Part shown: piece after piece, positions 3,431 through 59,569 of the stretch
How the letters are laid out: each line of letters starts with the position of its first letter
Numbering within the stretch: the stretch's first letter is position 1
NCBI GenBank assembly: GCA_021413735.1
Contig: JAIOPV010000039.1
Coordinates: forward strand, 62,001 to 126,000
DNA length: 64,000 nt
Source of the DNA: Planctomycetota bacterium
GTDB taxonomy: Bacteria > Planctomycetota > Planctomycetia > Gemmatales > Gemmataceae
Reading direction: 5' to 3'
Position numbers and translations under genes: made by a program
Notes under the pieces: model-generated
Told to the model about the DNA's origin: nothing
Databases searched by the model: none
Seen by the model: the letters and a program-made list of their open reading frames with translations, nothing else

Positions 3431-3459
3431 TTGGCGTCTTGTGCCGCTTCGGTTATGAT
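3431..3459 (+). promoter_or_regulatory. Candidate sigma70-type promoter of the kinase/SIR2 unit
   Basis: TTGGCG, a 17-base spacer, then TATGAT. It lies 39 bases before the ATG at 3499. It overlaps the longer possible reading frame from 3439, which argues against that earlier start. Confidence 0.5.
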
Positions 3460-3498
3460 CGCGGCACGTATTTCCCGTGTGCCTCAATTGAACCGCAT

Positions 3499-6400
3499 AT
3501 GGCAACCGACAATCCGAACGCCGACAATGCCAGTCCGTATAACCCTGACCCAGTTACGTTGCCCGGCAATCCGTTGGTGACACATGGGGAAACCCAACCC
3601 GATCACCGCAAACTTCCACCTGAAGAGACGATCTCTCACGCGAATTTGCCCCACACGCCTCCTTCGGCCTCAGTCCACAACGGAACTATTGCGCAGACAC
3701 CGCACGAAGCCGTGCGTGCGGCCGAACTTTCACATCACCCGATCCAGCAACGTCCATTCCCAGACATCCTTGGATACGAGATCACAGAAGAACTCGGTCG
3801 TGGTGGGATGGGGATTGTTTACAAAGCTCGCCACATTCGGTTGAATCGACCGACCGCCATCAAGATGCTGCTTGGCGGACAGTACCTCGATGCACTCGCT
3901 CAGACGCGATTTTTACTGGAAGCGGAAGCAGTTGCGCAGATTCAACACCCACACGTCGTTCAGGTGTTCGAGTTTGGACAGCACGACGGACAGCCTTTCT
4001 TCGCGTTGGAGTATGTCAACGGCGTGACACTGGCCAAGAAACTCCAGACCGTTGGTCCCTTCGCCCCGCGAGTGGCGGCCAAGATGGTGGCCAAGCTCGC
4101 TGATGCGATTGCAGCAGCTCACGCCAAAGGGATCGTTCATCGTGATTTGAAGCCTGCAAACGTGCTGCTCGATGAAAATGACGAACCCAAGATTGTCGAC
4201 TTCGGACTCGCAAAAGTTGGCAAGTCCGACATGACCATCTCCGGCGCGATCATGGGGACGCCGAGTTACATGAGTCCGGAGCAAGCGGCAGGACGCACCA
4301 AGGAGGTTGGCACTCCCACAGATGTCTATGGCCTTGGGGTGATCCTGTACGAACTCCTGAGTGGTCGCGCCCCGTTCAAGGGCGACTCAGCCATGGACAC
4401 GATCCAAAAAGTCCTGACGTCGGAATTACCGCGGTTAACGGGTGTGGCACCGAACACTCCACGCGACCTGGAGACAATCTGTGTAAAGTGTCTGGAAAAA
4501 GATCCGAGCCAACGCTACCGCACGGCCTCTGAACTGTTGTTGGACTTGCAGCTCTATATCCAGGGTCGCCCGATCATGGCGCGTCCCATTGGACCATTGG
4601 AGCGATCGTGGAAGTGGGTGAAACGACGTCCAGGGCGGGCGGGGGTGGTTGCGGCTGCCGTTCTGGTGCTGCTCGGGGCAGTGGTTGCCGCGAATGAGGT
4701 TCAGAAGCAGCAGGAGAGCGAACGATACGCGGCTGAGAAGCAGCGAGCCGATGATCGGATTACCGCGGAGCAGAAACGTGCAACAGACCTCCGAGCAAGT
4801 CGTGCCACGTCATTGATTCAGGCTTTGACTACTGCGGACACAGAAGAGTTGCCGCGAATTATCGACGACCTCGCGGAGTTTCGTGATCTGACACGAACCC
4901 AGTTGGATGGACTCGCAAGCCAACCAATAACGACGAAGCCCGGACTTCACGGCAGGCTCGCACTCTTGCGAGAGGAGCCGCGGCAGGCGGTGGAGTTGGC
5001 TCAGTACATCCCGCTTTGCCAACCCAACGAACTGCTCACGATCCGTGAATTGCTGACACCGCGTTATGAGTCCGTTTCCCTTGGCCTGTGGACATTGCTA
5101 TACGACGAGACGGCTGGATCTGCGAAGCGAGTTCGGGCGGCGTGTGCGCTGGCTGGATGGTGTGCCGAGGATCAACGCTGGGCGAAAGTGGCTCCTCGAC
5201 TGTCTGCGGCTGTTGTTCACGCGGCTCCGAATGAGTTCGTCGTCTGGGCGGAGGCACTGAACCCGGTTCGCAAGCATCTCGTGCCTGCGTTGATGATCCG
5301 CTATCTCGAATCACGTTCAAAATGCAGCGGCGGGAAGTTGACGGTGTCGGAGTTGGTCGCTGAGGCGTCAGCGTTTGATTTGGCAGCCAATCTCTTAGCC
5401 AGATATACGGTGGACCGCCCGGTGGACCTCGCGGAACTGGCGATAGTGTTGGATGCCCGACACTACGGGATGATTGCAGAGACTGTCCAGAAGCAAAACC
5501 GGGATGCGGTCATTCCCGTGCTGAAGGCAGAACTGGCCAAACGGCCACCATCGACTTGGGTTCAAGAAGGAGAACCCTGTCCTGCGGTGGCATCAATCCT
5601 CGGTGCCTTCCCGATGGTGGATATCCTGTTTCGCTCGGACGCGGTGTACGACACACTTGCGAGGCGTCAGGCGAATGCAGCGGCCGTGCTGCTGACCTTG
5701 GGAGAAGGAAAGATCGTGTGGCCCCTGTTGGCGTTCCCGAAGAATGGGGATCCATCCGTGCGAAGTCACTTGATCGAACGAATCGCGGCGATCGGCGTCG
5801 ATCCACGAACTCTGATGAGCCGGTTTGAGGTCGAGACCGACGTTTCGGCCAAGCGTGCGATCTTGATCGCCCTCGGCGATTATTCACCTGGGCTAATTCC
5901 ACCTCCGGAGCGTGGACAGTTTGTGTCGCGGTTGTTGAACCTGTACAGGGAGCATCCTGATTCTGGGCTCCACTCTGCCATCGAGTGGCTGCTTCGGCAG
6001 AAGTGGGACACGGCTCAGGAGGTTGGTGACATTGATGTGGGACTGTCCAAGTTCGCAAAAGGGCGGATCCCAACGAACAAGGACTGGTTCGTGAACGGGG
6101 AGGGTCAAACATATGCTGTTGTCCGTGGTCCCGTGGAGTTCACGATGGGGTCGCCGGTGACTGAAGTTGGCCAATTTGTTGATGAGACCACCAACAAGAA
6201 ACGGATTAGCCGTTCATTCGCCATCGCCACCAAGGAGGTGACAATTGAGCAGTTCCTGCGGTTCCGCTCGGATCACGCCTGGGAAAAACGCTACAGTCCA
6301 GCTCCGGACACACCAGTCGTGAAAATGTCTTGGTATCAGGCAGCGGAATACTGCAATTGGCTGAGCGCAAAGGAAGGCATTCCTGAGGCTCAATGGCCTT

Positions 6401-6885
6401 ACGAGCCGAACAAGGATGGGCAGTATGCGGAGGGAATGCGGATGAAACCCGAACACCTGAAGTTGACTGGCTACCGTTTGCCGACAGAGGCAGAGTGGGA
6501 GTATTCGTGCAGGTCGGGAAGCTCAACAGCCCGTCACTACGGTCGCGGGGAAGCGTTGATGTCGCGATATGGTTGGTTCTCGCGAACATCGGACGACCGC
6601 ACCTGGCCCGTGGGTCAACTCCGCCCCAATGACCATGGACTGTTTGACACGTTGGGGAATGTAATTGAGTGGGTCGAGGATCCAGGGTTCGCTCCTTCGG
6701 GCCAGCTCGAGGACATGGAGAATCCAAGGTATTTGGTGATTAACGAGCAGTCCAATCGACTCCTTCGGGGTGGTTCCTTCATCTACCTCCCGGCCTATCT
6801 TAGATCCGGATTCCGGAAGTATTATCAGCCTGGCAATCGCATTTATGACCTCGGGTTCCGTCCTGCGAGAACCGTAAACGAGTAG
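3499..6885 (+). CDS. Membrane Ser/Thr protein kinase with C-terminal FGE-sulfatase-like domain
   Basis: About 1128 residues. A low-complexity N-terminus is followed by a complete Hanks kinase: glycine loop GRGGMG (100-105), AIKML, HRDLKPAN (214-221), DFG (234-236), GTPSYMSPEQA. One membrane helix follows near 380-400 (GVVAAAVLVLLGAVVAA), then a charged coiled coil (about 400-440), a long helical, perhaps repeat-type region (440-860), and an FGE-sulfatase/SUMF1-like domain (about 870-1125) with FTMGSP, RLPTEAEWEYSC, GNVIEWVED and LLRGGSF. The cysteines of true formylglycine-generating enzymes that follow RGGS are missing, so this domain should bind rather than oxidise. The kinase should be cytoplasmic and the FGE domain outside, a receptor-kinase plan. 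A macro-SIR2 gene follows 36 bases later, probably cotranscribed. Confidence 0.9.
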   Translation: MATDNPNADNASPYNPDPVTLPGNPLVTHGETQPDHRKLPPEETISHANLPHTPPSASVHNGTIAQTPHEAVRAAELSHHPIQQRPFPDILGYEITEELGRGGMGIVYKARHIRLNRPTAIKMLLGGQYLDALAQTRFLLEAEAVAQIQHPHVVQVFEFGQHDGQPFFALEYVNGVTLAKKLQTVGPFAPRVAAKMVAKLADAIAAAHAKGIVHRDLKPANVLLDENDEPKIVDFGLAKVGKSDMTISGAIMGTPSYMSPEQAAGRTKEVGTPTDVYGLGVILYELLSGRAPFKGDSAMDTIQKVLTSELPRLTGVAPNTPRDLETICVKCLEKDPSQRYRTASELLLDLQLYIQGRPIMARPIGPLERSWKWVKRRPGRAGVVAAAVLVLLGAVVAANEVQKQQESERYAAEKQRADDRITAEQKRATDLRASRATSLIQALTTADTEELPRIIDDLAEFRDLTRTQLDGLASQPITTKPGLHGRLALLREEPRQAVELAQYIPLCQPNELLTIRELLTPRYESVSLGLWTLLYDETAGSAKRVRAACALAGWCAEDQRWAKVAPRLSAAVVHAAPNEFVVWAEALNPVRKHLVPALMIRYLESRSKCSGGKLTVSELVAEASAFDLAANLLARYTVDRPVDLAELAIVLDARHYGMIAETVQKQNRDAVIPVLKAELAKRPPSTWVQEGEPCPAVASILGAFPMVDILFRSDAVYDTLARRQANAAAVLLTLGEGKIVWPLLAFPKNGDPSVRSHLIERIAAIGVDPRTLMSRFEVETDVSAKRAILIALGDYSPGLIPPPERGQFVSRLLNLYREHPDSGLHSAIEWLLRQKWDTAQEVGDIDVGLSKFAKGRIPTNKDWFVNGEGQTYAVVRGPVEFTMGSPVTEVGQFVDETTNKKRISRSFAIATKEVTIEQFLRFRSDHAWEKRYSPAPDTPVVKMSWYQAAEYCNWLSAKEGIPEAQWPYEPNKDGQYAEGMRMKPEHLKLTGYRLPTEAEWEYSCRSGSSTARHYGRGEALMSRYGWFSRTSDDRTWPVGQLRPNDHGLFDTLGNVIEWVEDPGFAPSGQLEDMENPRYLVINEQSNRLLRGGSFIYLPAYLRSGFRKYYQPGNRIYDLGFRPARTVNE

Positions 6886-50009: not shown

Positions 50010-52073
50010 ATGCGATCTCGAAGCCTTGCGTTCGCGGTGGTCGTGCTCGGAGGATTCACAATGACGGCAAGTTCTGACGAAGGCATGTGGTTGCTCGATG
50101 CGCCGCCGCGAGACTACCTCAGGAAGCAATACGGTTTCGAGTTGACCGACGCTTGGCTCAAGAACGCCATGCTTGCGTCGGTGCGGCTCAACAGCGGCGG
50201 TTCAGGTGGCTTCGTGTCGCCGGATGGCTTGCTCGTCACGAACCACCACGTCGCGGCTGACTCCGCTCAGAAGCTCAGCAAGCCCGGTTTCGACCTCTAC
50301 AACGACGGTTTCTACGCCGAGACTCGGGACAAAGAACTGAAGTGTCCCGACCTCGAAATCAACGTGTTGCAGAAGATCACAGACGTCACGAAAGAAGTGA
50401 ACGCGGCCGTGAAGCCCGAGATGAAACCCGCCGAGGCGTTCGCGGCTCGCCGGACCATCATGGGCAAGATCGAGCAGGATTCGCTGAAAGAAACTGGCCT
50501 GCGGTCTGATGTGGTGACGCTTTACAACGGCGGTGCATACCACCTTTACCAGTACAAGAAGTACACCGACGTTCGGCTCGTGTTCTCTCCCGAAAAAGCG
50601 ATTGCGAGCTTCGGCGGCGACGTCGATAACTTCGAGTTCCCGCGAATGAATCTCGACGTGGCGTTCTTTCGCGCTTACGAGAACGACAAGCCGATCAAGA
50701 CGCCGAACTACTTCAAATGGAGCGAAACCGGTCCGAAGGAAAACGACCTGGTGTTTGTCACCGGACACCCAGGCACAACGCAACGCCTCGAAACGCTGGC
50801 GAAGTTGAAGCATCGCCGCGATTATACGTTGCCATACACGCTGTACCGATTGCGAACGCTTGAAGCGGCGTTGTCGCAGTTCGGAATGCAAAGCCCCGAG
50901 AAGGCCCGACAGGCGGGGACCGACCAACACAGCGTCGCCAATGCTCGCAAGGCGTTCAGCGGTCAGTTGCAGGGCTTGCTCGATCCCGCCATCATCGAGC
51001 AGAAAGCAAAATCCGAGGCATCGCTCGGCGACGCCGCCGGTAATGACGCTGCGTTCAAAAACGCCATCGCACAAATCGCGGACATCCAGGCGAAGTATCG
51101 TGAATTTGAGAAGCCCTTCGGGCTTCTCGAAACGGGGCAGGCGTTCTTCTCGCCGCTGTTCGGCATCGCCCGCCACTGCGTCCGCATGGCCGACGAGCTG
51201 CCGAAGGATCCCAAAGACCGCCTCCGCGAATACCGTCCGTCGAACCTCGATTCGCTGAAGTTCGCGTTGTTCAGCCCAGCCCCGATTTACCCCGAACTCG
51301 AACGTGCGAAGCTCACGGCATCGCTCACGTTCCTCGCAGAGAACCTCGGTGGCGACTCTGAAATCGTGAAGCTCGTGCTCGCAGGCAAGAACCCCGCGTC
51401 GCGTGCGGATGAGCTGGTCAACGGCACAAAGTTGTTCGACCCAGCCGAACGCAAGAAGCTCGTTGACGGCGGCAAGGCAGCGATCGACGCAAGTAAAGAT
51501 CCGATGATTCTGCTCGCCAAGGCGATTGACGCCGAGGCTCGCAAACTTCGCACGAGGTACGAGAACGAAGTCGAGGAACCCGAACGGCAGGCATATGCGG
51601 CGCTCGCAGATATCCGCTTCAAGGCACTCGGGAGTTCGGTTGCTCCGGATGCGACGTTCACGCTGCGGCTCGCGTTCGGAACAGTGAAGGGCTACGAGGT
51701 TGGGGGCGAGAAGTTGCCGTTCCACACGACGTTCGGCGGGGCGTTCGATAAGTCCACGCAGCTCGGCGGCAAGGAACCGTTCGATCTGCCGAAGCGCTGG
51801 CTCGACGGGAAGGCGAAACTCGATCTGGAGACGCCGTTCAATTTCATCTCGACGGCAGACACGATCGGCGGCAACTCAGGCAGCCCCGTGCTGAATCGCG
51901 ACGGCGAACTCGTTGGCATCAACTTCGACCGCAATCGCCATGGGTTGGTGCGAAACTTCGTCTACACGGACCTTCAAGCCCGGCACATCGCCGTACACTC
52001 GAAGTCGGTTCTGGAGGCGCTTCGCAAGTTGTATCCAGCAGCTCCGCTGGTCAAGGAACTGACCGGCAAGTGA
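50010..52073 (+). CDS. S46 family dipeptidyl peptidase (DPP7/DPP11-like)
   Basis: 687 residues with a signal peptide. DEGMWLLDAPPRDYLRKQYG is the S46 N-terminal signature; the chymotrypsin-fold triad is visible as TNHHVA (His79/80) and GGNSGSPVLN (Ser623). The long helical insert (about 260-530) is as in the family. It cuts dipeptides from peptide N-termini in the periplasm; the residue in place of DPP11's Arg673 would set specificity, and I cannot judge it. ATG at 50010 starts the signal peptide. Confidence 0.93.
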   Translation: MRSRSLAFAVVVLGGFTMTASSDEGMWLLDAPPRDYLRKQYGFELTDAWLKNAMLASVRLNSGGSGGFVSPDGLLVTNHHVAADSAQKLSKPGFDLYNDGFYAETRDKELKCPDLEINVLQKITDVTKEVNAAVKPEMKPAEAFAARRTIMGKIEQDSLKETGLRSDVVTLYNGGAYHLYQYKKYTDVRLVFSPEKAIASFGGDVDNFEFPRMNLDVAFFRAYENDKPIKTPNYFKWSETGPKENDLVFVTGHPGTTQRLETLAKLKHRRDYTLPYTLYRLRTLEAALSQFGMQSPEKARQAGTDQHSVANARKAFSGQLQGLLDPAIIEQKAKSEASLGDAAGNDAAFKNAIAQIADIQAKYREFEKPFGLLETGQAFFSPLFGIARHCVRMADELPKDPKDRLREYRPSNLDSLKFALFSPAPIYPELERAKLTASLTFLAENLGGDSEIVKLVLAGKNPASRADELVNGTKLFDPAERKKLVDGGKAAIDASKDPMILLAKAIDAEARKLRTRYENEVEEPERQAYAALADIRFKALGSSVAPDATFTLRLAFGTVKGYEVGGEKLPFHTTFGGAFDKSTQLGGKEPFDLPKRWLDGKAKLDLETPFNFISTADTIGGNSGSPVLNRDGELVGINFDRNRHGLVRNFVYTDLQARHIAVHSKSVLEALRKLYPAAPLVKELTGK

Positions 52074-52102
52074 AAGAACCTAACCTCACGCACGGAGCCA
52101 CC

Positions 52103-52810
52103 ATGGCCACTTCCACCGCCAAGAAATCGAAGTTCCACACGTTCGCGGACGTTCAGGAACGGCTCGGGAACATCCCCGAAGCCCGCATCCTGTCGTTCCC
52201 CGCTCCGGGAACTGCGACCGTGCAAGACTTGCTCGATTCGTCGATTACTGGAGATCGCGGCTGTGAACTCGTGGAAGGCATTCTTGTGCAGAAAGCGATG
52301 GGATTCCACGATGACTATATCGGGTCGTGGCTCATCCACCTTTTCCTGACGTATCTTGATACGAACAATCTCGGCGCTGTGTCGGGAGCACAAGGATTGA
52401 TTCGTTTCAAACTCGACCTCGTGCGAGTTCCCGATGTTGCTTTCATTCGCTGGGATAGCGTCGAGGACCCCGACGAAATCGAGAACCCCGCTGGAGCGTT
52501 TCTCGAATACCCGCCAGACCTCGCGGTTGAAGTGCTGAGTCCGGGCAACACCCGCAAGGAAATGGAAATCAAGCTCGGCGAATACGCGAAGGCCGGTGTC
52601 AAACTTGTGTGGTATGTCGATCCGGAACGCAAGGAAGTTGACGTATTCCCGAAGGCAAACGCGAAGCGCAAGCAGACGTTCGACATCAACGGCACGCTCG
52701 ACGGAGGGGACGTGTTGCCGGGGTTCACGCTACCGGTCGCGAAGATCTTCGAGAAACGAGCGCCCGCGAAGAAGCCCGGCAAGAAGGGCAAGCCCAATGG
52801 CAAGCGATGA
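52103..52810 (+). CDS. Uma2 family protein (second), with basic tail
   Basis: 235 residues. Uma2 core GCELVEGILVQKAMGFHDDY, VRVPDVAFI, DLAVEVLSPGNTRKEMEIK and GVKLVWYVDPERKEV, with the PD-(D/E)xK-like acidic residues. An additional 40-residue N-terminal stretch and a lysine-rich tail (APAKKPGKKGKPNGKR) differ from the copy at 31826; the tail may bind nucleic acid. GGAG precedes the ATG. A GTG at 52070, overlapping the peptidase stop, is an alternative start. Confidence 0.87.
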   Translation: MATSTAKKSKFHTFADVQERLGNIPEARILSFPAPGTATVQDLLDSSITGDRGCELVEGILVQKAMGFHDDYIGSWLIHLFLTYLDTNNLGAVSGAQGLIRFKLDLVRVPDVAFIRWDSVEDPDEIENPAGAFLEYPPDLAVEVLSPGNTRKEMEIKLGEYAKAGVKLVWYVDPERKEVDVFPKANAKRKQTFDINGTLDGGDVLPGFTLPVAKIFEKRAPAKKPGKKGKPNGKR

Positions 52811-53758: not shown

Positions 53759-55057
53759 TTACGGCCGTTGAAGAATCCCACGACCCGGATCGCGAGGTTT
53801 GGGGTCGATGCTTCGCGGCTCGTAAATCAAGTTGGTGCCGCCACGGACAAGCGGAGTCTCCCCAGGCTCCATTCCAGGCGGCGTGATTCGCCACTTCTTG
53901 CCGGTGCACATCTCTCGCACGCCTTCGTTGAACAGTGCTGTCATCGCTTTCGGGTCGAAGTCCACAGCCGAGCCGGGAATCTCAAACTCCGCCGGGATTG
54001 CCGTCATGGAGAAGTTTTGACCGCGGATCGTGCAATACGTCCAGAGGCGAAACAAGTCGCCACGAGTCTGGGCATACAGGACTGTTTCCACGTTACTCGC
54101 GGCAATCGACAGCGCTCGCGGCTTAATCACCTTGGGGTCGGAAAACAGCTTGCCGGCCACGATCACGTACACGTCGCTGCCATACAGCGAACGTGCTTCG
54201 GGTGTGTCCGGCACATCGGGCGGGAAGTACGGCGGGGCCGAGAACAATCCCTGCGAAACGCCACCATCGGAATGCCTCTCAACGAGTAACCGGCCACCCA
54301 CTTCGATCTCGATTTCCGACGGTGGAAAGACGCCGGGGATTGCCGACGAGCCAAGCAGAACTCGCTTGATCGTGTCGCGATCACACGGCCGACCACGGGA
54401 AGCAATGGCCCCGATATCCCACACCACGAACCGCCGACTTTCGACTTCCGTGGTGCCGACATACAGCCGCCGTCCCTTCGAATGTTCAATCGCAATCTCG
54501 CGAACGATCTCGTCAGTGAGGACTCTGTCGATCTGGTCGGCGAGGGGTTTGTTATCCGCGAACGCCTCGGAAAATAAGCCGCGAATCGGCTTCGCCCGGA
54601 ACACGTCCTTGCGGCTCAGCGTCGTGTAGAACTCCTTCATCAGTGGATCGTATTGCGTGCCGAGGAACGCAAACGGGGCGATCAATGCCCCGGTGCTGAT
54701 GCCTGTCACCACATCGAATTGAGGGCGACCGCCGCACTGCGTCCAGCCGCACAGAACGCCAGCGGAGTAGGCACCGTATGAGCCACCCCCCGACAGGCAG
54801 AGGATCGTTCGCTTTGGTGGTATCACTGCGGGCTTGTTCTCGTCGCGAACCCGCATCACGAGGTTGTAGAAGTTCGGGATGCCAGTCCCGCGAGCAACTT
54901 GCATCTCCAGTTCGGGATCGACCAGGTTGTTCGAGTGGATACCCACTTCGGCAGGACTCGGTGCCCCACGAAATCCCTTCCGATTCGCGCAGCCGGGCAG
55001 CAAAGCGATTGCGAGAATCGCCCCACAAAGCCAGAGTTGGCGAAACGCTGCCATCAT
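53759..55057 (-). CDS. Patatin-like phospholipase lipoprotein
   Basis: 432 residues. Lipobox LLPGC (Cys23), then a patatin domain: oxyanion loop SGGGSYGAYSAG (89-100), nucleophile Ser121 in GISTG and Asp264 in DGGVSQ. All catalytic elements are intact. It likely cleaves acyl lipids at the membrane. The C-terminus (PLVRGGTNLIYEP...) is unassigned. Possible starts ATG at 55057 or 55054. It converges on the DapA-family gene; the kinase-FGE gene ends 156 bases upstream. Confidence 0.9.
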   Translation of the reverse strand: MMAAFRQLWLCGAILAIALLPGCANRKGFRGAPSPAEVGIHSNNLVDPELEMQVARGTGIPNFYNLVMRVRDENKPAVIPPKRTILCLSGGGSYGAYSAGVLCGWTQCGGRPQFDVVTGISTGALIAPFAFLGTQYDPLMKEFYTTLSRKDVFRAKPIRGLFSEAFADNKPLADQIDRVLTDEIVREIAIEHSKGRRLYVGTTEVESRRFVVWDIGAIASRGRPCDRDTIKRVLLGSSAIPGVFPPSEIEIEVGGRLLVERHSDGGVSQGLFSAPPYFPPDVPDTPEARSLYGSDVYVIVAGKLFSDPKVIKPRALSIAASNVETVLYAQTRGDLFRLWTYCTIRGQNFSMTAIPAEFEIPGSAVDFDPKAMTALFNEGVREMCTGKKWRITPPGMEPGETPLVRGGTNLIYEPRSIDPKPRDPGRGILQRP

Positions 55058-55213: not shown

Positions 55214-58200
55214 TCAGGTCCGCGAGTCCGGCAGAACCATCACGATGCGGAAACCCAGAGCGTCGTAGCGAACGGCAGGATCGAACCAACTGCGATAAGT
55301 CGAACGACAGAACTTCGCGGAGTCGCCCCAACCACCGCCACGGAACACACGATCGGAACCCGTCTCCGGGCCACCGGGATCGGTTTGGTCTTCAGCGGAG
55401 TATTCCGCGTACCAGTCGAGGCACCATTCCCAGATGTTCCCGTGCATGTCGTGGATGCCCCAGGCGTTCGGAGCGAGCTGCCCCACGGGGTGCGTCTCTT
55501 TGCCGCTGTTCCCCTCGTACCAACCCGCTTTCTGGAGCGATTCCTCGCCGTCGCCGATGTTGTAATCGCTGGTCGACCCCGCCTTGCACGCATACTCCCA
55601 CTGGGCCTGTGTCGGCAAACGCACTTCAGCACGTCCCTTCAACTGCCGCGTCATCTGGCGACAAAACTTTCGGCTCTCTTCCCACAGTACTTGCTCAACG
55701 GGTCTGTCCGGGCCAGGAAAGTTACTCGGCTCGCTGCCCATCAATGCGGCCTTCCACTGAGCCTGCGTGACGGGATAGATGCCGATGAAGAAGCCTTTCG
55801 TGAGTGTGACCGTGTGAGCGGGTTTCTCGTCCGAGTTGGCATCGTCGCGATTGCTGCCCATTGTGAATGTGCCCGGAGGACACCACGCGAACGTCAACGG
55901 CAAGTCGCCCGGCAGCTTGATCGTGAACCTTTCGCCAGCCGTGCGACTCCGCCCAGGATGCAGCGGGTCTTTGCTGACGACCTCGGGCGGACGTGGCTCG
56001 GATGCGGGCTTCGATTCTTCCAGTGGGGGTTGCGCAATCTTGGGTGCTTCGACGGGCTGTACAACAGCGGGCGGTTCGGGTTGTTGAGCGACCTCGGGCG
56101 GTTCCGGCTGCTGTGCGATCTCTTCCGGAACGCTCTCGACGTGAGAAACATCAGGGGTTTCGGCAGGCTCCAACTCCTGAACCTCTTCGACAGTCTCGGA
56201 GAGTTCTGGGGTCTCGACCGCGTCCAACTCGTGGATTTCTTCGTCAGGTGGCGGTTCAGGGTCGTGGAGCGTCTCAGAAGGTTCCAGCTCCTCGACGGGT
56301 TCCAGTTCGTGAATTGCTGAGACTGGTCCAAGCACCTCAACTGGGTCCATATTCGCGAAGATATCTGCCGCTTCCGCAACTGCGGGCACTTCGATTGCCT
56401 CTGCCAGTGGAGCCGCGCTCGGAAAGAACGCATTCAGCGCATCGAGAACCTGATCGAAGTTCGAGAATCGTGCGTCGAGCGTCTCCGCGGTCGTTCTTTC
56501 GATGAGAGTCTGAAGGAGTGCTCGCTCGTCCACGGGAATGCTCGCCCAGTGATTCGGCAGCGGGAGCGTGGTCTGGAAGAGGAGGAACAGGCACGTCTTT
56601 CCGAAAGCATAAACGTCTGAGTGCGGCCCAACTGCGACACCCGGAAGCTTGCCTCGCTGTTCCGGCGAAGAAAACTCAAGCGATCGCGTCAGGCTGCGGT
56701 CGCGTGCCGTGGAACGTTTCGCCGCGATGTTCAAGCTCGCGTGATAAACCGCCTCGTGCGGCGCAGCCAACCCGAAGTCGATCACCCGCACGTCCCAGTC
56801 GGTTTCGATCATCCGCGACATGATGTTCGACGGTGCCAGATCACGATGCCAAACATTCTTCGCGTGTGCATCCCGGATCGCTTCCGCGATCTGAATTGCC
56901 ACCGGCAGGAAAACTTGCACTGGCATCGGGCCGTAGCGACGGATCACCGCGTCGAGCGTTTCCCCCGCGAAGTGTTCCATCACGAGGTACGGACGTTCCT
57001 TCCGGTTGCCCTTGTCGGTATCCGTGTTGGCGTAACCCCAACCGAGTACCCGAATGATGTGGCTGCCGGGGCGGTGTAGATCACGCAGAGTTCGCGCTTC
57101 GGAGAACACCGCACGGGGGTCGCGATCGAGGTTATCGTATCGCAGTGCCTTGATGACCACCGGCATCGGCTGCCCGTTGTCGTCGAGGTCTTCGGTATCG
57201 AAACAGCGGAACACCGTGCCAAATGCGCTGACACCCAGAACGGCGTCAATGTGGTAGCGTGCGGTGTCGAACGGGCGAAAGCGTGCGGCATCGAGTTTGG
57301 TGGCGCGGGCCAGTGCTTCCTTTGCTTCGGGCCATTTGTTTCCTTCGCATGCGTCCTTGTAGATTCGGTAGAAGTTATCGGCTTCCGCATTGGGATTGGC
57401 GTCGGTGCGTGCTTGTGCCGCTGCTGCGGTGTGGGCCGCACGCGCTTCCTTGAACAGACCGCAAGCGTCGAGATTGTCGCCGAGATTCTGCCAGTCGATC
57501 CACTCGACCAACTCGCCAGGAAGATGCCTCAGTCGCGCGTGAAAGTTCAGCATTCGGTCGCGTTCGTTGAACGCCTGAATCGTGAGCGGAGCATCGACAG
57601 CCGCAGCCACGACATGGTTCACGTCGCGCCATTCGCGCAACTCCTTGCGGAGTGTGCCGAGTTCATGAACCGCCCGACCGAACCAATCACTCAGCGGATC
57701 GAACAGCATATCGAAGTGTTCGAGAACGCCGACCGTGGGAACTTCGAGAAATGCGATTCCGCGTTCGCTGACTGCGGTCACCATCCGAATGGAATCGAAT
57801 GACAACCCGCGAGCGAGGTCGGGGTTGACCTCTACTTCGCGCCGGAAGAAGTACAGGAACGCCGCGGCGAGCAGTGGGATACCGTCTGGCGGTGCCAGCC
57901 GAATAGCCCGTGTGAGGTTGGGGGCTTCCATCGCGAGCGCGTCTGAGATCTTCGCGATTGCCTCCGGTGCGCCGGTGAGAAGTCTCGCGGCGTCGCCGCA
58001 GCGCCAGAGATCGACGATCATCACATTTCGATCGACGATCAGCGCGAGCCGACCTGCCTTTCGCAATCGAGCGAGTTCGGCACACGCCTGGAGGCGCAGC
58101 CCCGCGGGAGCCTGGTTCAATCCGGTTGGGGTGATGGTCAGGAAGCCTCGGATCAACTCGCGGAGAGCAGTGAGATCGTGACCGGGGAGCCAGGGCTTCA

Positions 58201-58396
58201 CACGCTCGAATAACTCATCGCCCGCGAGCGCGAACCCCACAGCTTTCCAGGCTTTGTCGTTGGCACGCATCAGCGCGTGCTGCAACGGTTGGCTGGGGTT
58301 GGAGAACCGTGCGCCGATCCACCCAAGCAACTGGTCGACGGACGTGTTGAACGCCGCCTTCAGGGTGAACGCGGCAAGCGGACCCATAACCGACAT
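55214..58396 (-). CDS. Kinase-like protein with unknown N-terminal domain and C-terminal FGE-sulfatase-like domain
   Basis: 1060 residues, no membrane helix. Residues 1-300 are an unassigned helical domain (LALIVDRNVMIVDLWRCG, LLAAAFLYFFRREVEV); 300-370 look TPR-like. The kinase domain (about 380-660) has GVSAFGTVF (388-396), VIKAL (Lys416), HRDLAPSN (517-524; the usual Lys after L is Ala521) and DFG (540-542). A Pro/Glu-rich linker (690-810) leads to an FGE-like domain (825-1055): FTMGSN, RLPTQAQWEYACKAGS, GNIWEWCLDWY, RGGGWGDSAKFCRS. Of the two active-site cysteines of real FGE only the second is kept. GGAG precedes ATG. The plan differs from the membrane kinase at 3499. Confidence 0.85.
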   Translation of the reverse strand: MSVMGPLAAFTLKAAFNTSVDQLLGWIGARFSNPSQPLQHALMRANDKAWKAVGFALAGDELFERVKPWLPGHDLTALRELIRGFLTITPTGLNQAPAGLRLQACAELARLRKAGRLALIVDRNVMIVDLWRCGDAARLLTGAPEAIAKISDALAMEAPNLTRAIRLAPPDGIPLLAAAFLYFFRREVEVNPDLARGLSFDSIRMVTAVSERGIAFLEVPTVGVLEHFDMLFDPLSDWFGRAVHELGTLRKELREWRDVNHVVAAAVDAPLTIQAFNERDRMLNFHARLRHLPGELVEWIDWQNLGDNLDACGLFKEARAAHTAAAAQARTDANPNAEADNFYRIYKDACEGNKWPEAKEALARATKLDAARFRPFDTARYHIDAVLGVSAFGTVFRCFDTEDLDDNGQPMPVVIKALRYDNLDRDPRAVFSEARTLRDLHRPGSHIIRVLGWGYANTDTDKGNRKERPYLVMEHFAGETLDAVIRRYGPMPVQVFLPVAIQIAEAIRDAHAKNVWHRDLAPSNIMSRMIETDWDVRVIDFGLAAPHEAVYHASLNIAAKRSTARDRSLTRSLEFSSPEQRGKLPGVAVGPHSDVYAFGKTCLFLLFQTTLPLPNHWASIPVDERALLQTLIERTTAETLDARFSNFDQVLDALNAFFPSAAPLAEAIEVPAVAEAADIFANMDPVEVLGPVSAIHELEPVEELEPSETLHDPEPPPDEEIHELDAVETPELSETVEEVQELEPAETPDVSHVESVPEEIAQQPEPPEVAQQPEPPAVVQPVEAPKIAQPPLEESKPASEPRPPEVVSKDPLHPGRSRTAGERFTIKLPGDLPLTFAWCPPGTFTMGSNRDDANSDEKPAHTVTLTKGFFIGIYPVTQAQWKAALMGSEPSNFPGPDRPVEQVLWEESRKFCRQMTRQLKGRAEVRLPTQAQWEYACKAGSTSDYNIGDGEESLQKAGWYEGNSGKETHPVGQLAPNAWGIHDMHGNIWEWCLDWYAEYSAEDQTDPGGPETGSDRVFRGGGWGDSAKFCRSTYRSWFDPAVRYDALGFRIVMVLPDSRT

Positions 58397-58765
58397 GCAG
58401 ACACTCCACGCGGGGCAAGCGGGATCAATCGATGAATACGAAAACTGTTCCGTGAATCTGCGACTTCCGAAGCTCTTTCATTTTGCCGTAGTCACAGAAA
58501 TTTCGGAAGGAGGTAAGTCGAGAACACCTGGAGGATAGTTTGGTGATTTCTGGTATTTGGTAGGGATGATAGCGAATTGGGGAATGATTCCGTCGGGTTG
58601 GATCATGCTTTTTCAGAATCAAGCCCATCGACAGGAAATTTCGCTACTTTCTCGGCTGCTGCGAGTTGCACTTGCACTGAGCTTTTCCTGCGGGCTACAC
58701 TCCCCTCCGACATGACTCACCGGGGTAAGGAAACCCCCTTGAGGTCCACGGAGGGACCGACGCTT
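58397..58765. other. Gene-free divergent intergenic region of about 370 bases
   Basis: It is more AT-rich than its surroundings. Frames in it have no support. It contains a candidate promoter (58672-58701) and, just before the plus-strand gene, GGTCC/GGACC around the ribosome-binding GGAG (58743-58758). Confidence 0.5.
58672..58701 (+). promoter_or_regulatory. Candidate promoter of the C26/AnmK-like unit
   Basis: TTGCAC, an 18-base spacer and TACACT, about 65 bases before the chosen ATG at 58766. Confidence 0.35.
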
Positions 58766-59569
58766 ATGCCAGTTACCCGCATCAAGGATCCCAGCCCGAA
58801 AACCTCCACCGCCACCCCACCACCGGGTCGGCCGCTGATCGGAGTGAACACTGATTACGTCACCCCGAAGAACGGCCCGGCGTACACGAAGCTGAACGTG
58901 GGGTACATCGACGCGATCATCGGAGCGGGCGGTTTGCCAATTCTGCTGCCGCCACCACGACGCGATAACCTCGCGGACTTCGACGTCCTTCTCGACCAAC
59001 TCGCGGGCATCGTGCTGACTGGTGGGGCCGACATGGACCCACGCCGCAACGGTCAGGCTCTCACGGCTGTCGTGAATCCGATGCCTGCTCGCCGCGAAGA
59101 TGCCGACCGCACGCTGCTCGCGCGAATCTTCGAGCGCAAGATACCCGTGCTTGGCATTGGTGTCGGCATGCAACAACTCAACGTGTTCGCGGGCGGAACG
59201 CTGCATCTTCACCTGCCGGTCGATAATCCGAAGGCGATGCCGCACTTTGACCAGACCGGCGCACCGCATCGTCACATGGTGCTGATCGAGGGCAACACCC
59301 GGCTCGACGACATCTACGGTGCTCAGGAACTTCGCGTGAACAGCACGCACCATCAGGCTGTGAATCAGATCGGGAAGCGAATGCGGATTGCGGCCAAGGC
59401 TCCAGATGGCGTGATCGAAGCGATCGACGCGACCGATCCAAACTGGTTCTGTGTCGGCATTCAATGGCACCCCGAAGCCGACACCGCATCGGCGCTGGAT
59501 GTGCAAATCTTCGAGTGCTTCGTGCAGGCTGCGGTTCGGGCCTCGGATAATGTGTTCGCGGTGGCGTGA
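58766..59569 (+). CDS. C26/GATase1-like protein lacking the catalytic cysteine
   Basis: 267 residues resembling gamma-glutamyl-GABA hydrolase (PuuD-type peptidase C26): RPLIGVNTDYV, GIVLTGGADMDP, VNSTHHQAVNQIGKRM and a QWHPEA with His235 and Glu237. The nucleophile elbow, normally LGICRGMQ, reads LGIGVGMQ; the codon is GGT (Gly132). It cannot hydrolyse by the usual mechanism and may be a binding protein. GGAGGG lies 10 bases before the ATG. An ATG at 58712 is a possible longer start. The AnmK-like gene follows after a hairpin. Confidence 0.86.
   Translation: MPVTRIKDPSPKTSTATPPPGRPLIGVNTDYVTPKNGPAYTKLNVGYIDAIIGAGGLPILLPPPRRDNLADFDVLLDQLAGIVLTGGADMDPRRNGQALTAVVNPMPARREDADRTLLARIFERKIPVLGIGVGMQQLNVFAGGTLHLHLPVDNPKAMPHFDQTGAPHRHMVLIEGNTRLDDIYGAQELRVNSTHHQAVNQIGKRMRIAAKAPDGVIEAIDATDPNWFCVGIQWHPEADTASALDVQIFECFVQAAVRASDNVFAVA

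Follow-up and report, generated by a model that had tools for sequence, protein, structure and literature searches.

A kinase-FGE-fold protein with an altered catalytic loop and a family-specific N-terminal domain in a Gemmataceae planctomycete

Kinase-lectin fusions are already known from bacteria. In planctomycetes the FGE-sulfatase domain (FGE, named after the formylglycine-generating enzyme) ranks third in abundance among the partner domains of kinases, and the two are mostly joined through a single transmembrane (TM) segment that places the FGE domain in the periplasm (PMC11032199). In cyanobacteria, kinase-lectin proteins are common targets of diversity-generating retroelements (DGRs), and gating of the fused kinase by its C-type-lectin (CLec) domain has been proposed (PMC7517822). 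Here we analyze the gene at positions 55214-58396, on the reverse strand, of a 64,000-nucleotide stretch of contig JAIOPV010000039.1 from a Planctomycetota bacterium of the family Gemmataceae; we call this whole stretch the window. The new part of this variant is the family-specific N-terminal domain (N-domain, ND) on which it is built. We think the chances about even that the encoded protein is a soluble, cytosolic, ligand-gated sensor or scaffold, with a relaxed kinase acting as a switch or slow kinase and an ND serving for docking. The parts of the gene are as follows.

55214..58396, reverse strand: whole gene, 1060 amino acids (aa) from an ATG; open reading frame (ORF), start common to two orthologues
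57677..58396, reverse strand: ND, residues 1-240, predicted all-helical, new family; 26-member alignment, no meaningful Pfam match in the 26 members, structure models
57257..57676, reverse strand: helical link with a TPR-like part, residues 241-380; window protein without a Pfam match here, weak TPR in relatives, helices in the model
56537..57256, reverse strand: protein kinase domain, residues 381-620; Pfam, motif table
56825..56848, reverse strand: catalytic loop HRDLAPSN, residues 517-524, with Ala521 replacing Lys; motif table, pattern scans of the own genome
55922..56536, reverse strand: Glu/Pro/Ala-rich linker, residues 621-825, less conserved than any other part; orthologue comparison, dN/dS
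55217..55921, reverse strand: FGE-fold (C-type-lectin-like) domain, residues 826-1060; Pfam, PDB alignments

The ATG start is supported by the opening MSVMGPLAA, which is common to two orthologues. Pfam recognizes the FGE-sulfatase domain at residues 838-1052 (E 1.1e-44) and the kinase at residues 381-615 (E 3.7e-20), and among the matches listed none from Pfam, NCBIfam or PADLOC falls in residues 1-380. This agrees with a preliminary description of the gene, made from its letters, which took the N-terminal part to be new and unassigned; a known housekeeping domain there was looked for and none was found. That description also called a part ahead of the kinase TPR-like. The window protein itself gives no TPR match, and what speaks for the label are weak matches of relatives to TPR models just ahead of the kinase (E 0.003 and 4e-4) and the helices that a low-confidence fold model places in residues 241-380. 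The reported lack of a membrane helix was confirmed by hydropathy, the highest 19-residue Kyte-Doolittle mean being 1.28, and the protein appears soluble and cytosolic. It does differ, as had been noted, from the other kinase-FGE protein of the window (3439-6885, forward strand), in which the loop reads HRDLKPAN and the residues around 401 are strongly hydrophobic (2.36), and which is of the ordinary planctomycete type. The PADLOC and NCBIfam matches of our protein are generic to kinases and FGE domains and lie below curated cut-offs where these exist, and the match names MAD6 and PD-T4-6 were discounted as evidence of defense. Like the planctomycete kinase-TM-FGE proteins (PMC11032199), the window protein carries both its kinase and its FGE domain on a single chain; unlike them, it begins with the ND, has no membrane helix and has lost the loop Lys. 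Like the cyanobacterial kinase-CLec proteins, whether DGR targets or their paralogues (PMC7517822), it has a kinase followed by a C-terminal C-type-lectin fold, but it carries no DGR signature, has a different N-terminus and has an eroded kinase.

To judge from sequence comparison, the ND forms a family of its own, nearly confined to one bacterial family, and the window protein belongs to this wider set rather than being an isolated oddity. In its own genome the ND region recurs in three further genes, two ND-kinases (L037 and L038, the latter with a TM2 end) and an ND-WD40 protein (L039). Four residues are invariant in the alignment of 26 members (W50, L57, L161 and L194, numbered as in the window protein), and there are conserved blocks at ANDRAWxAxxxALAG and PLLxxAxxYFFRREVE. 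A profile built on the ND gave 75 matches in 37 of 95 genomes of the window's family; in a sample of 294 genomes of the phylum it found only the window genome and two others, both from one other family, and among 5386 reversed ORFs of the fetched loci it found nothing at E up to 10. None of the 26 members has a meaningful Pfam match, and the comparison with Pfam effector-associated domains (EADs), which the preliminary description had proposed, gave by HMMER a single weak match (VMAP-M4, E 0.06, in one of the 26). Fold prediction, likewise proposed there, came out all-helical, although at low confidence: AlphaFold models from 10 sequences reached a mean predicted local distance difference test (pLDDT) of 59 for residues 1-380, and of 65, with a predicted TM-score (pTM) of 0.66, for the ND alone with a relative (L119) as target. 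Foldseek with the ND models returned nothing at E 0.001 or better, the best VIA-align Z of 3.2 is within noise for helical models, and the matches of the ND profile among PDB sequences were limited to coiled coils and short helices and are of questionable value (best E 7e-4). With weak models and no reliable PDB match, the ND fold can be called neither known nor new. Searching the literature, with supplements and most subscription papers outside its reach, we found no earlier description of the ND in Gemmataceae.

What the ND is joined to varies widely. We examined 47 distinct ND proteins, namely 44 of the 75 family matches, those retrieved with their flanks, and three from the phylum sample. 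A kinase is present in 25 of them and absent from 22. The kinase is followed by FGE in seven proteins, WD40 in two and TM2 (by Pfam) in two, and by a uracil-DNA-glycosylase (UDG) domain, GYF_2, HEAT, TPR (read from the sequence) and a DUF4011-helicase-nuclease part in one each; in the remaining nine, not all of them scanned with Pfam, nothing was recognized. Among the 22 kinase-less proteins, nine carry WD40 and one HEAT, one is truncated where its contig stops, and 11 show no partner at first sight; in two of these 11 (L124 and L141) the C-terminal part is vWA-like and contains the motif DKSGSM. Moreover, other genera of the family have a small gene set, conserved across six loci (L142, L143, L144, L148, L149 and L150), in which an ND-only gene directly follows a vWA-type gene; by motif scan a second vWA-type gene precedes the first in five of the six. 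The vWA-type assignment here means a DxSxS motif together with Pfam hits below curated cut-offs (vWA-TerF-like down to E 1.8e-4). Three of the seven stand-alone vWA-type partner proteins that were scanned gave no vWA-like or Copine match, a PDB profile search with these partners gave nothing, and the one partner searched against the own genome of the window protein had no match there. In the ND tree the FGE fusion requires at least three changes of state and the partner class (kinase, WD40 or none) at least six, the WD40-only members forming one clade. These numbers imply that ND partners have been swapped, and the ND is a module that occurs with many partners.

Three of these proteins are worth describing in their own right. 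In L124 (1692-5435, forward strand, JACOUH010000376.1) an intein (Intein_splicing 752-1156, LAGLIDADG_3) sits inside the metal-binding motif DKSGSM, which in L141 is uninterrupted. L139 (4947-7796, reverse strand, G043:C259) is an ND-kinase fused to a domain of the uracil-DNA-glycosylase superfamily (PF03167, E 5.3e-36). L147 (2243-10039, reverse strand, G088:C503) is a 2599-aa fusion of ND, kinase, DUF4011, SF1 helicase and MTES_1575 nuclease; it matches the PADLOC models PDC-S37 (E 1e-170) and Hhe (4e-81) and adjoins TraI-type and SNF2/ResIII helicase genes. A comparison of L147 with the Mokosh kinase-helicase was also considered.

We turn now to the kinase. The loop HRDLAPSN, already read as lacking the usual Lys, was found as described. 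The Ala521 loop is not a common local variant, since a DNA pattern scan of the own genome (CGN Arg codons only, and only Ala, Thr or Lys at the variable position) found HRD[LIVMF][A/T]PxxN once, in this ORF, versus 134 loops with Lys. The glycine loop reads GVSAFG, its second Gly being replaced by Ser, and the kinase retains the beta3 Lys416, the alpha-C Glu433, the HRD Asp519, Asn524 and the DFG Asp540. The two nearest orthologues, L116 and L117, with ND identities to the window protein of 79% and 67%, go further. All three proteins have Ser at the second glycine-loop position and have replaced the loop Lys, by Ala in the window protein and by Thr in both orthologues; in addition the alpha-C Glu has become Asp in both orthologues and the beta3 Lys has become Arg in L117. 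By comparison, 18 of the 25 aligned ND-kinases have the canonical residue at each of the 12 motif positions checked, and departures outside the group of three are scattered: L151 has Ser for the second Gly and Asn for the loop Lys, L131 has Asn for the HRD Asp, L132 has His for the HRD Arg, and L083 has Asn for Glu and Asp for the DFG Gly. At the same time, the ratio of nonsynonymous to synonymous substitution rates (dN/dS) indicates purifying selection on every domain of the window protein, the kinase included: against L116 and L117 respectively it is 0.13 and 0.20 for the ND, 0.13 and 0.19 for the kinase, 0.08 and 0.11 for the FGE domain and 0.19 and 0.31 for the linker, values that are rough because dS exceeds 1. 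The orthologous group is drifting toward the pseudokinase state. It resembles bacterial pseudokinases in the loss of catalytic-motif residues, and under the rule (PMC12599244) that a pseudokinase lacks the beta3 Lys, the HRD Asp or the DFG Asp, the orthologue L117 is one.

The FGE-fold domain is the most conserved part of the protein, with 81% and 77% identity to the two orthologues, and its last 40 residues are almost invariant across the three species. Among solved structures, the one nearest to it is the Treponema denticola variable protein (2y3c; E 4.6e-32), whose solved chain, unlike the window protein, has no kinase. When the domain is aligned with human FGE, the first of the two active-site cysteines, which we take to be the copper-binding pair, is matched by Asp1025 and the second by Cys1030. 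Since Asp1025 occupies the first position, copper-dependent oxidation is not expected of this domain. Enzyme activity of the domain is unlikely, and the earlier proposal that it binds a ligand is plausible. Elsewhere in the same genome (L041, G000:C284:5523-11757) four FGE-domain matches lie within about 6.2 kb.

How could a protein of this kind work? We infer that the FGE-fold domain, having lost its enzyme chemistry, would bind a conserved intracellular ligand, and that binding would be relayed to the kinase via the flexible acidic-proline linker. The relaxed-site kinase would then act mainly as a nucleotide-binding switch or as a slow kinase, while docking of the protein, to itself or to partners, would fall to the ND and the helical link. 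Several observations weigh against this picture. The structure models of the ND are weak, and four genomes of the same genus (G009-G012) hold one ND match each, so that a second ND protein is not required there as a partner. Loss of the loop Lys alone can be compatible with activity, as animal tyrosine kinases do without that residue. Finally, unlike bacterial pseudokinases, the window protein keeps all three of the residues by which these are defined and is no pseudokinase under that rule (PMC12599244).

The chromosomal setting bears on what the protein could be connected to. Two genes flank it immediately.

53759..55057, reverse strand: patatin-like gene directly downstream; also adjacent at both orthologous loci, no functional link demonstrated
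58577..59569, forward strand: divergent peptidase C26-family gene; also adjacent at both orthologous loci, no functional link demonstrated

Within the DNA retrieved around the two orthologues, the genes follow the same order (S9 peptidase, BadF family, AnmK, C26, ND-kinase-FGE gene, patatin and dihydrodipicolinate synthase, DHDPS), and the locus is a stable chromosomal setting common to two other species. Pfam supports AnmK (PF03702, E 4.6e-43), BadF/BadG (8.9e-34) and DHDPS (1.1e-76), and the neighboring enzymes give no more than a hint of cell-wall or amino-sugar recycling. On the far side of the locus (window 52070-52810, forward strand) lies a Uma2-family gene with a putative restriction endonuclease fold (PF05685), for which we claim no link. 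These neighbors raise the alternative that the protein is a metabolic Ser/Thr kinase of the ordinary kind, with full activity, that tolerates its loop change and regulates the adjoining cell-wall or sugar-recycling functions. The intact beta3 Lys, alpha-C Glu, HRD Asp, Asn and DFG in the window species would fit such a role, as would the synteny of AnmK, BadF/BadG, DHDPS and peptidase C26. However, the synteny seen in these three related species may mean no more than that rearrangement is slow, and the further catalytic losses in both orthologues, including the beta3 Lys in one, mean that full activity is not conserved by the orthologue group. We therefore regard this alternative as doubtful.

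The preliminary description suggested instead a conflict-system signaling protein. In this case an invader molecule would be sensed intracellularly by the FGE domain, and kinase and ND would recruit an effector via ND-ND contacts in the manner of EADs. ND relatives do occur with conflict-type parts: the helicase-nuclease fusion L147 (one of the 47 ND proteins, and not the window protein) with its PADLOC matches and adjoining helicase genes, and the six loci in which an ND-only gene follows vWA-type genes. In addition, FGE-fold domains, vWA domains and Ser/Thr/Tyr kinases occur in predicted conflict systems, planctomycete ones included (PMC8195603, PMC7159879). For the window protein itself, several observations speak against such a role. 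The FGE domain shows no fast evolution, and the gene order with AnmK, BadF, C26, patatin and DHDPS is kept in two other species with no defense gene beside the window gene. No vWA, MoxR ATPase or third component of a ternary system was found among the seven nearest neighbors scanned, no ND partner gene adjoins, and the own genome is without a match to the vWA-type partner tried; the locus does not look like a defense island. Partner choice alone is no proof of conflict, because WD40, TPR and FGE are also common partners of ordinary kinases in the group (PMC11032199). An immunity role for the window protein is possible, and we consider the receptor mechanism just outlined unlikely.

A working formylglycine-generating enzyme fused to a kinase, suggested by the Pfam family name and E-value, is highly improbable with the cysteine pair incomplete and the protein apparently cytosolic. 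Scarcely credible is a DGR target with the FGE domain as its hypermutated receptor, despite the top PDB match to the Treponema protein, which we take to be a DGR product, and despite the cyanobacterial precedent (PMC7517822): it was rejected for want of a template copy, for non-DGR motifs in the two reverse transcriptases (RTs) read, and for a C-terminus which, being nearly invariant, looks like the opposite of a hypervariable region. Specifically, no template repeat matching the 3' end was found in the own genome, a 96%-complete draft in which absence is not absolute, and the eight other matches of the 3' 304 bases at E below 0.01 all fall within query positions 24-144, the conserved core, with none in the 3' part. 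That genome has six RT hits; the motif was read in two (YADD), both with QGxxxSP, which we take to be group II or retron-like rather than DGR-type, and the other four are unclassified.

We return to the ligand-gated sensor or scaffold, and to what its ND may connect. Like the EADs of ternary conflict systems (PMC7159879, PMC8195603), the ND looks non-catalytic, enters diverse fusions and accompanies vWA-type gene sets in some genomes; unlike them, it is about 240 aa long, is nearly confined to one bacterial family and has no convincing HMMER match to Pfam EADs. From partner shuffling, the vWA association and one helicase-nuclease fusion we would, quite tentatively, draw a wider parallel: the ND may be an undescribed EAD-type adaptor hub through which kinases, vWA-type proteins, WD40 propellers, lectin-fold sensors and a helicase-nuclease effector are linked in one intracellular response network, in which the window protein would be a ligand-gated near-pseudokinase receptor with a fixed rather than hypermutated sensor. 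The orthologue trio also captures a bacterial kinase on the way to a pseudokinase under purifying selection. While kinase-lectin fusions are known, their coupling to pathways is the gap that the ND may address. As a recurrent adaptor, the ND may thus offer a handle on how internal signaling is organized in these very kinase-rich bacteria, and on whether part of it is immunity.

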